A stretch of DNA of 64,000 bases, from the IMG/VR virus record IMGVR_UViG_3300026097_000009, positions 62,001-126,000 of that record. One strand, 5' to 3'. The notes beneath the pieces are model-generated. The model was not told the origin of the DNA, did no database searches, and saw only the letters and a program-made list of their open reading frames with translations. Source of the DNA: a virus. Of this stretch, positions 21,052 to 26,598 are shown piece after piece. Made by a program: the position numbers and the translations under genes. Within the stretch, counting starts at the first letter, position 1. Every line of letters begins with the position of its first letter.

Positions 21052-23703
21052 CTATGTTCCTGCGTATACATTGCCTGATAGTGCTTTTATTGCATCTATC
21101 TGTTGTTTTGAAAGTCTAAGTTGTTCTGTAAGTACAGCAACTAATTGAGACACTGAAGTAGTATTTAAGTCATCTGCATTTGTTGGGCTTCCGCCTTGGG
21201 CAGTTGAACCTGTGGATCCGCCAGTTGCCTTTGTTATTTCAGCTATAAGCTGTTTCATTGTTTCTTCGGTCATCTTATTTTCAGGATCTAAATTTTTAGC
21301 CATTGCTACTATTTCTTCCATAGTTTTCGATCTGTTTCCGTTCGCAGAAGCCGTTTCATCGTCACTGAACCACGAAGTAACGCTATCCCATGCACTAGAC
21401 GCCGCATCAGTTGTTGCATCAACAATATCCGATCCGCTTGGTATCCAATTAGTAAACATTTTCCAACCTTCTTGAAGACTATTATACATTCTAGTTCCAA
21501 TATCATCAACCCAATTAAATGTTGAAGTAAATGCTTCGTTTATGTGCTCCCTTGCAACTTGTCCTTGGGCTATCCAATATTCGTCAGTTAACCACTCAGG
21601 CATAGAAGGGAACTTAAAATCAAATAGATCTTTCAAAGATCCAAATCCTCTAGTACCTGAACTGCCTGCCAATTCACTTTCATAGGTTGCCATCGTAAGA
21701 TCGTTTCCGAATATTCCGGTTTGTGTGGTTGTACCACGCCCGCCGGCGGCGGAAGTTACATCGGTCGCAGTATCTCCTGCGAGATATGACCCTTGTTGTT
21801 CAGCAAACGTTTTTAATAATTGATCAGGACTTGAATAATCTAACAAAGATGCATTGTTGGCGTTTCTTATTTCAGTCTCACCTAGAATAGAATTTTCTAG
21901 TTTTTTAATATACTGTAACCGCGACTGTTCACGACGATTATCTCTGTCTTCTCGATAGCGTTGTTGTGCCTGTTGCGCGGCTTCGTTTTCTTCGGCAGAT
22001 CTAAACAAGCTCATAAAGGCAAGTGCCGCATCCATAAATGAATCTCTTAAGAAAAACAGAGCATCGCCTATAGTAAACATGGCATTGGTGAAGAAAATAC
22101 CCATATCTATAAGAGCCGCATCGAGTTGACTTCCAGCATCTGTAATATCTTCAAAACCACTGGTAAGCTTTCTTATAGCTCCTGTTATTGAATCAAGAAT
22201 AATCATAAATGGCTGTAATGCAACTCTTATAACTTTTCCAAAAAATTCAACAAGGTCAAATAACGGAACTAATAACGATGTAAAGAAACTTGTTACCGAG
22301 ATCAGTGGATCTATGAACTGTCTTAAGAATCCAGTTATACTGTCAAACATATCCATAACATCTGGTAAAATTCCACTGTCTGCCATTAATCGACTGAACA
22401 TGTTCGACAGTTCGTTTACTCGTTCTAAAAATCTTTTACTGACTTCTGCTAAAGCATCGGTTGTTGAAGTCGCCTCTTGCTGTGCTCTTACAGCGTCTAT
22501 CAAGGAGTTTTCTTGTCTTCTACCTGCATCCGTTAATGCATTAATTTCATCGCCTAAGACTCCAAATTGTCCTATGGTTGAAACTTGGGCACTTGATTGT
22601 CTAGCTGATTGTATAGTTAAATTAGTAAGAGAATTAGCTGTTTCTAAACTAAATCGCCCAGTCTGATCAAGAGCTCGACCAGCTTCCATTGCGGCAACTC
22701 CTGCTTCTCCTAAGAACGGAACTAATTTTCTCGATGCTTCTCCTGATGCTGTTCCAGAAATTACAATTTCCTTAAGAGCAGTTCTTAATGTCGGATCGTC
22801 AAACTGATTAATAAACAATCTTAGATTTTCAGCATCTGCTTCTCTTCCGGAAGCAATCATTGAATTTAATTGAGATTGAAATGCCGCGTCGGCAGCTAGA
22901 TCTTCGTTTCTTCGCTGGGCTTCTTCTCGGGTTTGACCTGTCACTTTCGCTAATAGATCTAATTCTTTAAGATAGGACACAGTTCCTGAAACGTATTCTT
23001 GATTAGTTCTGTTTTGTCTAATCCCTACCCTGTTTACAATGCTGATGTAATTAGCCAACCCTTGATTTATATCTTGTGTTGTAAAACCAAGATTTGCAAG
23101 ATCGTTTGCTACTTCGCTTGCTCTAAGCTGTCTGCCTAGTTCGGCAAATCTACGAGCTCCTTCGGCTGTATTTCCACTTAGCAATCTCAAAGCATCGCCG
23201 TTACTCTTTAGCAATCCGGCAAAATCTTGTAAATTTAATCCTGCATTTCCTGCGGCAACGGATACTTCAAGTATTTGTCCTCCAAATGATGCGCCGGCTT
23301 GAGAAGCTGTTTGAAATGCCCGTATATTTCTATCTATCTGTTCAGTATATCTTGAAAGAAATCTACCAAAGATAAAAATTTCGTCTGTGGCTTCGGATAA
23401 TGCAGAACCTTGTAAATTTGCGATAGCAGACTGTTTTCTTACTATACTGTCAAGAACCTCTGCGGATTTTGTAAGTTTACCAGCAACAGCACCGACTGCA
23501 AATGACAACGAATCAAGACTTGATTCTACAGCTCCGGTGCCTTTTAGAGATCCGCCAGAACCTGACCCGCCAGAAGTGCCGCCTCCTCCTCCGGTGTTTT
23601 TAATTCCGTTGATAGCACTTACGAGTTGTTTGAGGGTAGATTCAGACGCTATTCCGTCTACTACTACATCTCCAATGTTGGGAACATTAATTGTTACAGC
23701 CAT
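21052..23703 (-). CDS. Probable tail tape-measure protein (883 aa)
   Basis: Starts MAVTINVPNIGDVVVDGIAS. After a Gly/Ser linker (~37-53) comes long helical sequence with a hydrophobic segment at ~460-515 (VTSFFTSLLVPLFDLVEFFG and on), then a charged coiled coil and a variable Gly/Ser-rich C-terminus. Length, helix content and hydrophobic patches fit a tape-measure protein. The adjacent divergent gene encodes a gp26-type tail-assembly protein with a frameshift signal, the usual companion of tape measures in other tailed phages. T4 gp29 fills this role at 590 aa, but I see no clear sequence match. The ATG at 23703 has only a weak GGA site. An alternative is another baseplate or neck structural protein. 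Confidence 0.6.
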   Translation of the reverse strand: MAVTINVPNIGDVVVDGIASESTLKQLVSAINGIKNTGGGGGTSGGSGSGGSLKGTGAVESSLDSLSFAVGAVAGKLTKSAEVLDSIVRKQSAIANLQGSALSEATDEIFIFGRFLSRYTEQIDRNIRAFQTASQAGASFGGQILEVSVAAGNAGLNLQDFAGLLKSNGDALRLLSGNTAEGARRFAELGRQLRASEVANDLANLGFTTQDINQGLANYISIVNRVGIRQNRTNQEYVSGTVSYLKELDLLAKVTGQTREEAQRRNEDLAADAAFQSQLNSMIASGREADAENLRLFINQFDDPTLRTALKEIVISGTASGEASRKLVPFLGEAGVAAMEAGRALDQTGRFSLETANSLTNLTIQSARQSSAQVSTIGQFGVLGDEINALTDAGRRQENSLIDAVRAQQEATSTTDALAEVSKRFLERVNELSNMFSRLMADSGILPDVMDMFDSITGFLRQFIDPLISVTSFFTSLLVPLFDLVEFFGKVIRVALQPFMIILDSITGAIRKLTSGFEDITDAGSQLDAALIDMGIFFTNAMFTIGDALFFLRDSFMDAALAFMSLFRSAEENEAAQQAQQRYREDRDNRREQSRLQYIKKLENSILGETEIRNANNASLLDYSSPDQLLKTFAEQQGSYLAGDTATDVTSAAGGRGTTTQTGIFGNDLTMATYESELAGSSGTRGFGSLKDLFDFKFPSMPEWLTDEYWIAQGQVAREHINEAFTSTFNWVDDIGTRMYNSLQEGWKMFTNWIPSGSDIVDATTDAASSAWDSVTSWFSDDETASANGNRSKTMEEIVAMAKNLDPENKMTEETMKQLIAEITKATGGSTGSTAQGGSPTNADDLNTTSVSQLVAVLTEQLRLSKQQIDAIKALSGNVYAGT

Positions 23704-23764: not shown

Positions 23765-24613
23765 GTGGAAGGACAAACTGGTCACAATCCATTAGCACAA
23801 TATTACAGACAGCCTAAGATTTATATAAAATTACCAAGCAATGGAGAATTTTATCCCGAAGGAGCACTTGATAAAAGTGTTAACGAAGAATATCCTGTGT
23901 ATGCAATGACCGCAAAGGATGAACTTTTGCTAAAAACACCAGATGCGTTGTTAAACGGACAAAGCACGGTTGATGTAATTAAAAGCTGTGTACCAGCTAT
24001 TCTAGATCCATGGAAGATGCCTGTAATTGATGTTGACGCTGTCTTGATTGCTATAAGAATTGCAACATATGGAAACGAAATGGATGTCACACATATCTGC
24101 AAAGGTTGCGAATCGGAAGCAGATTATGTTGTTGACCTGACTGACAGTCTAGGACATATTCAATCTATGAGATATGAAACCCGAGTTGATCACCCACCAT
24201 TGATTATTCATCTTCACCCGTATTCATACAAAGACATGACCACAGTTGCACTGAAAGCATTTGAGCAACAGCGAGTTTTAAAAATTGTGTCAGATCAAAA
24301 CATGGAAGAAACAGAAAAATTGCAAAAGTTCAATGAAAGTTTTAACAAGCTGACGCAATTTACAATTGATACAATTACGTCAAGTATTACATCTATTGAA
24401 ACTCCAGAAGGCGTTGTAACAAATTCAGAAATGATAAATGATTTTATTAACAACACTTCAAAAGACATTTTTGAAAGCATTCAGACACACGTAAACGATT
24501 TTCGTGACAAGAGCGTATTGCCTACACAGAAAATTCAGTGTGAAAAATGTAGCGAGATTGCCGAAGTTTCAATTAGCATGGACATGTCTAATTTTTTCGC
24601 AGTAAGATCTTAA
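23765..24613 (+). CDS. 26: Baseplate hub/tail assembly protein, gp26-like (T4_baseplate family)
   Basis: 282 aa. The start is GTG at 23765 with GGAG seven bases upstream. The N-terminus (KIYIKLPSNGEFYPEGAL, VYAMTAKDELLLKTPDALLN) is the T4 gp26-type baseplate motif. Two CxxC pairs (residues 112/115 and 259/262) could bind zinc. In T4, gp26 acts in assembly of the baseplate hub. The zero-frame product ends MSNFFAVRS. The Phe-Phe codons at 24593-24598 form a slippery site, and a -1 shift there would replace the last four residues with a 75-residue gp51-like tail, giving 353 aa. Both products are probably made. Confidence 0.85.
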   Translation: MEGQTGHNPLAQYYRQPKIYIKLPSNGEFYPEGALDKSVNEEYPVYAMTAKDELLLKTPDALLNGQSTVDVIKSCVPAILDPWKMPVIDVDAVLIAIRIATYGNEMDVTHICKGCESEADYVVDLTDSLGHIQSMRYETRVDHPPLIIHLHPYSYKDMTTVALKAFEQQRVLKIVSDQNMEETEKLQKFNESFNKLTQFTIDTITSSITSIETPEGVVTNSEMINDFINNTSKDIFESIQTHVNDFRDKSVLPTQKIQCEKCSEIAEVSISMDMSNFFAVRS

Positions 24614-24638
24614 GACTGCCCGACGACCAGATCTTACT
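24592..24638 (+). promoter_or_regulatory. Probable programmed -1 ribosomal frameshift signal
   Basis: The heptamer T TTT TTC (24592-24598) is in the gp26 reading frame as a canonical X XXY YYZ site. Two bases later the arms AGTAAGATCT (24601-24610) and AGATCTTACT (24629-24638) form a perfect 10-bp hairpin with an 18-base loop that contains the gp26 stop. Loop bases TGCCC (24617-24621) can pair with GGGCA (24668-24672) to give a possible pseudoknot. The spacer is shorter than the usual 5-9 bases, so the base of the stem may be melted by the ribosome. Confidence 0.75.
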
Positions 24639-24825
24639 TGAAGGAAAAAAATTAGACAATGAAGCAAGGGCAATAAAAAAAGATCTCCTGCGTATCTGCT
24701 GGTTCATGCGCGGTTTAAATTATCAAGATGCACTAAATCTAACTCCGGATGAGAGAGAAATCGTCGGAGAAATAGTAAAAGGTAATATGGAAACTACCAA
24801 GAAAAGCGGAATGCCTTTCTTTTAA
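24592..24825 (+). CDS. 51: Frameshift-expressed extension of gp26, gp51-like
   Basis: This -1 frame has a stop at 24589-24591, immediately before the slippery site, and no ATG until 24706. It is open for 75 codons from 24598 to the TAA at 24823-24825. The translation begins RSKILRLPDDQILLEGKKLD and ends METTKKSGMPFF, a C-terminus I recall from the small gp51-like (baseplate hub assembly) reading frames of marine T4-like phages. The ATG at 24706 would give a 39-aa protein but has no ribosome site. The layout mirrors the lambda G/GT tail chaperones. The stop overlaps the stop of the opposing 198-aa gene. Confidence 0.7.
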   Translation, partial: FFRSKILRLPDDQILLEGKKLDNEARAIKKDLLRICWFMRGLNYQDALNLTPDEREIVGEIVKGNMETTKKSGMPFF

Positions 24826-25418
24826 TTTGTTTTCAGTCCGGTGAACAGAGTTTCAAAATCTTCAAGGTCCATTTCAGGCAATTCACCCTGTGCAAGTTTA
24901 TCCATAACGGGTTCGAATTGATTTTGGGCTAGATTATATCTCCCTGCTCTGAGATTATTTTTCATTTGTTTGAGCTGTGTAGCATCAGCGGTGTTTAATT
25001 TATCACCTCTAATCATTTTCTGTAAAATCTTTTGTTCAGGAGTTTCAGCTTGTCTCACAATGTTTTGCAATGCAGAGGTATCTTGAGAACTGATCGCATT
25101 TCCTTTGTATGCTGACTGAAATCCTTGCTGGTATGAATCAGACGCTGATCGAGCTGTTCTGCCCACGGCTTTAATCGCGTCTCCAGGAGCTTTTAGTGCA
25201 TTAATGCCTGCTCGGGCTACACCTCTAGCCGCACCTGCTACGGCTTGTTTAGCCGCCGCACTAGGCGATGAAGGTATTAATGTTCCTATGGCTTTCTTTG
25301 CTATACTACCGGCAGCACCTATCATCGAAGGCAACGGAATTGCTTCATCGATATGATTGTCTCTCAGTAATTCTTTTTTGAAATCACGATACGATGTATC
25401 AAAATCATTTATTTTCAT
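24822..25418 (-). CDS. Ala-rich protein of unknown function (198 aa)
   Basis: Not recognised. The start is placed at the ATG at 25418 (MKINDFDTSYRDFKKEL) because the upstream in-frame ATG at 25424 lies inside the TATAAATA promoter. After a short charged N-terminus there is an Ala/Gly-rich, basic helical region (~residues 30-100, with AAAKQAVAGAARGVARAG), then a mixed-charge helical C-terminus ending in an acidic patch. No catalytic motif is seen. It converges on the gp26/gp51 unit, and the two stop codons overlap. An Ala-rich amphipathic region could suggest a tail-interior or ejected protein, but this is only inference. Confidence 0.6.
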   Translation of the reverse strand: MKINDFDTSYRDFKKELLRDNHIDEAIPLPSMIGAAGSIAKKAIGTLIPSSPSAAAKQAVAGAARGVARAGINALKAPGDAIKAVGRTARSASDSYQQGFQSAYKGNAISSQDTSALQNIVRQAETPEQKILQKMIRGDKLNTADATQLKQMKNNLRAGRYNLAQNQFEPVMDKLAQGELPEMDLEDFETLFTGLKTN

Positions 25419-25423
25419 AATCA

Positions 25424-25431
25424 TATTTATA
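25424..25431 (-). promoter_or_regulatory. Late promoter TATAAATA directly before ATG
   Basis: A perfect consensus on the minus strand followed by TGATT and ATG. With T4 spacing (the last A at about -6) transcription would begin at the start codon of the 198-aa gene, and no Shine-Dalgarno is present. Confidence 0.7.
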
Positions 25432-25910: not shown

Positions 25911-26366
25911 TTATTCGTCCAACTGAGCGGGACGATTTCCATATATTTGTTCTAGTGTTTCTGTGAGTTGCCTTGAACTGCCTACACGCACATTGATAAT
26001 ACCGTTATAGTATTCGTCGGTTTCCAATACTCGCCTGTCGAACTGCTCTTTTGCCTCTAGATATGATAGGACGCCTCTGCTGGGACAGAAATGTAATATT
26101 TCTCTAGTGAATTTTTCTTCGCCTAGTGCTTCTACGTCAGCCTGTAACTTGTCTGAAGATCCCCAATAGAGTCTCCAGTCTGATTCTTTTGTTCCACGCC
26201 TACGATTTTTTCTGCCTTTGAGTGGGGGTTTTGAAGTTTTGAACCGTGCCAGTTTTTTGCCTATGTATTTTTTATTGTTTGTTAAGTTAGTAATTAGATA
26301 TACGAAGCCTTCGCAATCTTTTGGTAATTCATCAATCACTTTTCCCTGATAGGTCCACTGGCTCAT
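25911..26366 (-). CDS. GIY-YIG nuclease-like protein (151 aa)
   Basis: The start is the ATG at 26366 (MSQWTYQGKVIDELP); the frame extends upstream but overlaps the neighbouring gene heavily. The GIY-YIG core is present as GFVYLITN (residues 20-27) and KKYIGKK (32-38). Further conserved positions are DWRLYWGSS (~63-71) and the likely metal-binding Glu104 in SYLEAKEQF. A basic stretch (KGRKNRRRGTK) would contact DNA. Similar proteins sit beside the gp46/47 genes in marine T4-like phages as I recall, so a role in recombination or DNA degradation is more likely than homing. Confidence 0.75.
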   Translation of the reverse strand: MSQWTYQGKVIDELPKDCEGFVYLITNLTNNKKYIGKKLARFKTSKPPLKGRKNRRRGTKESDWRLYWGSSDKLQADVEALGEEKFTREILHFCPSRGVLSYLEAKEQFDRRVLETDEYYNGIINVRVGSSRQLTETLEQIYGNRPAQLDE

Positions 26367-26598
26367 GATTATATGTATCTTTAGCCGGTCTCCCATTCTT
26401 GCCGTTTCTGGCTTTGCGTCGCTCCGCTCGCTTCTCTTGAATTTCTTTGCGCCTCTCCGAGGCATGGTTTCTAATTTCGCTGAGCGCAAGCCTAGCTTTT
26501 AATCCTGCATCGTCTGAACCTTTGTATTCAAAACGATCTTGCCACTTAAAATATTCTTGAAATGCTTCAATCATTTTATCGTGACTGTCAGTAGCCAT
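26332..26598 (-). CDS. Small charged conserved protein (88 aa)
   Basis: Starts MATDSHDKMIEAFQEYFKWQ. It is helical and becomes very basic in the middle (ERRKEIQEKRAERRKARNGK), then ends in a short polar tail. It overlaps the gp46 stop (TAATG at 26596-26600) and the following nuclease gene by 35 bases, so it is translated as part of the gp47-gp46 operon. The basic helix suggests nucleic-acid or nuclease-subunit contact. No named family is assigned. Confidence 0.65.
   Translation of the reverse strand: MATDSHDKMIEAFQEYFKWQDRFEYKGSDDAGLKARLALSEIRNHASERRKEIQEKRAERRKARNGKNGRPAKDTYNHEPVDLSGKSD

Follow-up and report, generated by a model that had tools for sequence, protein, structure and literature searches.

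The 3' end of a gp26 homologue in the viral DNA analysed here (the window, a stretch of 64,000 nucleotides from an IMG/VR record of 154,861 bases) raises the question whether one gene gives rise to two proteins, the second being reached by a -1 shift of the ribosome. Judged by the major capsid DNA and gp26, the nearest named relatives of the record are jumbo T4-like phages. The features at the centre of the question are, in window coordinates:

23765-24613, + strand: gp26 homologue, the putative short form of a tail assembly chaperone (TAC-N), 282 aa, GTG start (from Pfam, PHROG and AlphaFold/Foldseek)
24589-24591, + strand: TAA closing the -1 frame just 5' of the heptamer (from the sequence; position not conserved in relatives)
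24592-24598, + strand: slippery heptamer T TTT TTC, the last Phe-Phe codons of gp26 (conserved in the window's clade and in cyanophage-like loci)
24592-24825, + strand: -1 frame, predicted C-terminal domain (TAC-C) of the long form, stop at 24823-24825 (from homologues and pN/pS)
24611-24613, + strand: gp26 stop TAA, the first bases of a hairpin loop (from the sequence)

The zero-frame protein matches PF12322 (T4_baseplate) above the Pfam cut-off (5e-14) and phrog_150 (1.8e-19), and its AlphaFold model (pLDDT 81.5) retrieves T4-like baseplate hub assembly proteins with Foldseek at E 6e-23. The record contains a single copy of PF12322, and neither the gp26 nor the TAC-C profile found a match in sequence searches of the PDB. 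The protein ends in ...MSNFFAVRS, and its Phe-Phe codons are read AAT TTT TTC, so that the heptamer lies in phase at 24592-24598, as an earlier note on this DNA had stated. Its prediction of a -1 frame open for 75 codons and a product of about 353 aa is likewise correct: the frame runs for 77 residues including the FF, 75 of them new, and the fusion has 353 aa. The window has 33 ORFs of 150 aa or more. A canonical in-phase heptamer occurs within the last 20 codons of two of these, and only gp26 has a -1 extension behind it, which continues for 69 codons past the zero-frame stop; this makes the combination of heptamer and extension more than a chance occurrence. The stop of the -1 frame overlaps that of a convergent ORF (24822-25424, - strand) whose 200-aa protein has no confident family match in Pfam or PHROG.

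The site was compared in two groups of relatives. In the window's clade, represented by the best 80 of many IMG/VR homologues plus the window, TTTTTTC occurs at the same codon in 81/81 sequences, and the offset of the gp26 stop from the heptamer is identical in 73 of these. TTTTTTC is likewise present in each of the 80 cyanophage-like loci fetched, and all of them have the gp26 stop one codon past the Phe-Phe pair and its following codon. The -1 stop directly upstream of the heptamer, to which the earlier note had drawn attention, is present in only 4 of the 81 clade loci; in most of them the -1 frame closes 3-19 codons upstream, and the observation does not hold in general. Homologues of the -1 domain are found at the same position in IMG/VR with 57-70% identity, and FFR is conserved at the beginning of the frame. 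In 60 distinct sequences the -1 frame contains no stop in any (60/60), against an average of 5-7 in other frames, and its pN/pS is 0.27, as compared to 1.30-1.38 in the other frames. On the evidence of these alignments the -1 frame is under purifying selection and is a real coding sequence.

The same arrangement is widespread among T4-like phages. T TTT TTC at the end of gp26, leading into an open -1 frame with a domain about 50-75 residues long, occurs in PBECO4, Cassandra, XaC1, RaK2 and CBB, in GAP32, syn9, S-PM2, Aeh1 and KVP40, and in P-SSM2; among the jumbo T4-like phages examined Atu_ph07 keeps the heptamer too. Variants at the end of gp26 are T TTT TTT (phiM12 and HTVC008M) and T TTT TTG (phiM9). 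In the database records the second frame appears as a separate 'gp51', as a hypothetical protein, or not at all. T4 itself differs. Searches of whole records with PF12322 gave two copies in T4 (genes 26 and 51) and one in every other phage searched, and T4 gp26 ends in GAG TTC TTT GAG, without a slippery heptamer. T4 gp51 matches phrog_150 over its whole length (3-248), and its C-terminal part matches phrog_634, to which the cyanophage -1 domain belongs; profile comparison of cyanophage gp51 with T4 gp51 gave an hhalign E of 4.5e-5. T4 gene 51 (baseplate hub assembly catalyst) thus resembles the proposed long form in having a gp26-like domain plus the C-terminal domain that frameshifting appears to add elsewhere, but it is a separate gene. 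Since T4 has both genes and lacks the heptamer, its second gene would make what other T4-like phages appear to obtain by frameshifting.

For calling the window's own C-terminal domain gp51-like, as the earlier note did, position and architecture are the main ground. The fusion scores no better against phrog_150 than gp26 alone (69.8 and 71.2 bits), which means that the phrog_150 profile does not recognise the domain, and its recognisable relatives in the phages collection are only Atu_ph07 and Phosso. Profile similarity of the window-clade domain to T4 gp51 is not significant, and that to cyanophage gp51 is weak (E 0.017, low probability). The AlphaFold model of TAC-C is predicted to be helical (pLDDT 88) and has no significant match in the PDB or BFVD; against the chaperone of phage Moogle the Foldseek match is weak and non-significant (E 1.2).

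The varied annotation of the second frame suggests an alternative, namely that it is a separate small gp51-like gene, translated by termination-reinitiation at the gp26 stop or from an internal start, with the heptamer incidental. An ORF of its own is annotated in the records of P-SSM2, S-PM2, KVP40, phiM9 and Phosso; Phosso and Atu_ph07 have a -1-frame ATG that overlaps the gp26 stop (ATGA), and in 67 of the 80 cyanophage-like loci codon 6 is an ATG. However, CTN replaces this ATG in 12 of the 80, and the window offers no such start: no ATG, GTG or TTG precedes codon 38 of its -1 frame, and the first start-like codon (ATG 24706, codon 38) lies inside the most conserved part of the domain. A start codon with a Shine-Dalgarno-like sequence common to the window's clade was not found either. 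A separate gene would, moreover, leave unexplained why the heptamer is conserved absolutely and in phase, and why FFR is conserved, and we regard this explanation as very improbable.

The following elements of a predicted RNA structure lie past the heptamer:

24601-24610, + strand: stem 1, 5' arm of the putative stimulatory hairpin (from covariation)
24629-24638, + strand: stem 1, 3' arm (from covariation)
24617-24621, + strand: stem 2 of the putative pseudoknot, 5' arm in the hairpin loop, TGCCC (from compensatory changes)
24668-24672, + strand: stem 2 of the putative pseudoknot, 3' arm, GGGCA (from compensatory changes)

In the window stem 1 is a perfect helix of 10 bp that begins 2 nt past the heptamer and holds the gp26 stop in its loop, exactly as had been described. 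The spacer of only 2 nt (about 4 to the well-conserved part) counts against it as a stimulator. In a scan of sliding 45-nt folds over 60 window-clade and 76 cyanophage-like sequences, the minimum of the fold z score sits right after the heptamer in both sets (means of -1.81 and -2.76, respectively), with mean values near 0 across most of the remaining region. An ungapped alignment of the 60 clade sequences was used for covariation. Pairing amounts to 85% in stem 1 and 76% in stem 2. Double-changed cells number 44 in stem 1, where shuffles give 12.9, and 63 in stem 2, where shuffles give 26.5; compensatory changes occur in 8 of the 9 aligned pairs of stem 2. Both scores fall sharply when the partner is shifted by 1-3 bases, and under a tree-based null neither was reached at these registers in 1000 simulations (p<0.001). 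For stem 2 this test is weakened because the register had been picked by eye on the same data. In an unbiased scan of the window clade, no register gives a better helix than stem 1 (p of the maximum 0.07). An all-pairs mutual-information scan with the tree null places stem-1 pairs within the top five at an E of about 0.8-1.1 each, values for which helix-level tests are needed. Both stems are well kept in 40 of the 60 sequences; the window forms 10/11 pairs of stem 1 and 5/9 of stem 2, the latter 5 bp being weak in the window alone. The 5-bp pairing between loop and downstream sequence that the earlier note had suggested thus exists in the window and is borne out by covariation in its relatives. 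Because the hairpin and the loop-downstream helix both covary, an H-type pseudoknot is likely in the window's clade, as far as can be judged from sequence comparison. The alignment of gp26 3' ends that had been proposed as a check came out strongly in favour of the site, with an invariant heptamer (81/81 and 80/80), a selected -1 frame and a covarying hairpin.

In the cyanophage-like loci a hairpin occurs at nearly the same place, one of its pairs being seen as TA, GC and AT. The unbiased maximum-helix scan of this set is not significant (p 0.88); the score of the named helix was reached in 0/500 simulations, with a p for pairing of 0.002. Several isolates (RaK2, syn9, XaC1) have little predicted structure, which indicates a variable stimulator at a constant heptamer. 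A search of Rfam gave no match. Some other loci have structures of their own. Past the heptamer of Atu_ph07 (L016 4001-4085) there is strong structure (z -6.1), in which a 10-bp long-range stem GGCTCTTTGT/ACAAAGAGCC surrounds a perfect inner hairpin, and Phosso retains part of the outer stem. The cyanophage-like loci L203 and L211 have nested hairpins past the heptamer, the outer one ATAGCTCTC/GAGAGCTAT and the inner one ATTCATATGAAT or GGTTCACATGAACC; the nested hairpins of some cyanophage-like loci appear to covary.

The T run itself allows a further explanation, that the polymerase slips on it and adds one U to some of the mRNA, which would bring the -1 frame into register. The site does contain a run of T6, extended to T8 in HTVC008M, but T6 is generally known to be short for polymerase slippage, T6C is held in 161/161 loci with no drift to longer runs, and the conserved codon phase together with the covarying RNA just downstream points to the ribosome; such slippage is very improbable. 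Reinitiation and transcriptional slippage were both considered and rejected. A one-base sequencing or assembly error in a gene that is truly one continuous ORF would also yield an in-frame -1 extension, but independent genomes refute this: about 160 metagenome contigs, and isolate genomes belonging to several groups, are interrupted in the same way at an identical codon, which leaves an error a negligible chance.

Programmed -1 ribosomal frameshifting, by which the one gene would encode a short and a long tail assembly chaperone, is therefore very probably the correct reading, given the conservation of the heptamer, the selection on the -1 frame, the lack of a usable start, the covarying RNA and the comparison with T4. 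These also support the earlier proposal of a chaperone pair of the lambda G/GT kind. The site, its conservation, the selection and the covariation can be read from the sequences; the slippage and its efficiency are inferred. Most ribosomes would terminate at the gp26 stop (24611-24613), and their product would be the 282-aa chaperone (TAC-N). A fraction would be held up by the hairpin or pseudoknot while the two tRNA-Phe occupy TTT TTC; these ribosomes would slip back to TTT TTT and translation would proceed in the -1 frame to the 353-aa TAC-NC, that is, the short form with an extra helical C-terminal domain. The chaperone role of the two forms is proposed on the model of lambda gpG/gpGT, with a tape measure protein that both forms would coat and tail tube subunits that would be recruited by the additional domain of the long form. 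The probable client is encoded next to gp26:

21052-23703, - strand: probable tape measure protein, 883 aa, divergently transcribed neighbour (from position and weak similarity)

This ORF sits between the portal gene and gp26, where RaK2, CBB and Phosso have their putative tape measure genes, and shows weak similarity to the one of Phosso (E 8e-5). It has no match above cut-off in Pfam, PHROG or NCBIfam, and on its position it is probably the tape measure protein and the likely client of the chaperones. On the other side of gp26, a 192-aa ORF (25911-26489, - strand) matches phrog_447 (7e-37), a family that carries the label NAD synthetase, and several families of homing endonucleases as well; the NAD synthetase label looks doubtful and a nuclease is likelier.

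The slippery site of lambda G/GT is G GGA AAG and, to our knowledge, has no established downstream structure, whereas here a conserved hairpin or pseudoknot follows T TTT TTC, and the gene for the probable tape measure protein lies on the opposite strand. The two systems are alike in that a short and a long chaperone come, in our case presumably, from one gene by a -1 shift near its 3' end; in lambda this shift is rare and the client is the tape measure protein (PMC5009743). The chaperones of the myoviruses Adele and Moogle (Vandenendeviridae/Andersonviridae) likewise have a conserved poly-T -1 site (GTTTTT) at the end of TAC-N (PMC12846349).

The earlier note had taken such a signal to be undescribed in T4-like phages, which is not the case. 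Vladimirov, Gautam and Davidson (Virology 566:9-15, 2022) reportedly identified the T4-like chaperone genes, and the abstract is said to describe frameshifting as conserved in several T4-like groups, with T4 using genes 26 and 51. A paper of 2025 (PMC12846349) treats poly-T -1 signals as known from T4-like TAC-N genes and cites Vladimirov et al. 2022 for them, and the PRFect paper (PMC10885494) cites the same work in connection with T4-like phages whose chaperones come from separate genes. Frameshift signals in the tail chaperone genes of T4-like phages have thus been reported before, and the present case is not new in kind: it shares the PF12322 family, the shift at the gp26 3' end and the short/long logic. 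The covarying pseudoknot is the added observation; no description of a conserved pseudoknot at the gp26 site was found in full-text searches of the literature, the text of Vladimirov et al. 2022 excepted.

What is added to a known T4-like frameshift is therefore detailed sequence conservation and a co-evolving RNA knot. On balance we favour a scheme in which a large uncultured T4-like lineage, to which the present phage belongs, sets the proportion of short and long chaperone by a covarying H-type pseudoknot over the gp26 stop, other T4-like groups have simpler hairpins behind the same heptamer, and the T4 branch has adopted gene duplication and fusion instead. The annotation of the gp26 3' end is corrected in the T4-like genomes examined, where the domain is recorded as separate or 'hypothetical' or is missed. 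The loci also form a natural sequence series in which the stimulator varies, from pseudoknot to hairpin to little structure, around one constant heptamer. With this series it can be tested in what way phages adjust the ratio of the two chaperones, and at what point and for what reason frameshifting gave way to two genes in the T4 branch.
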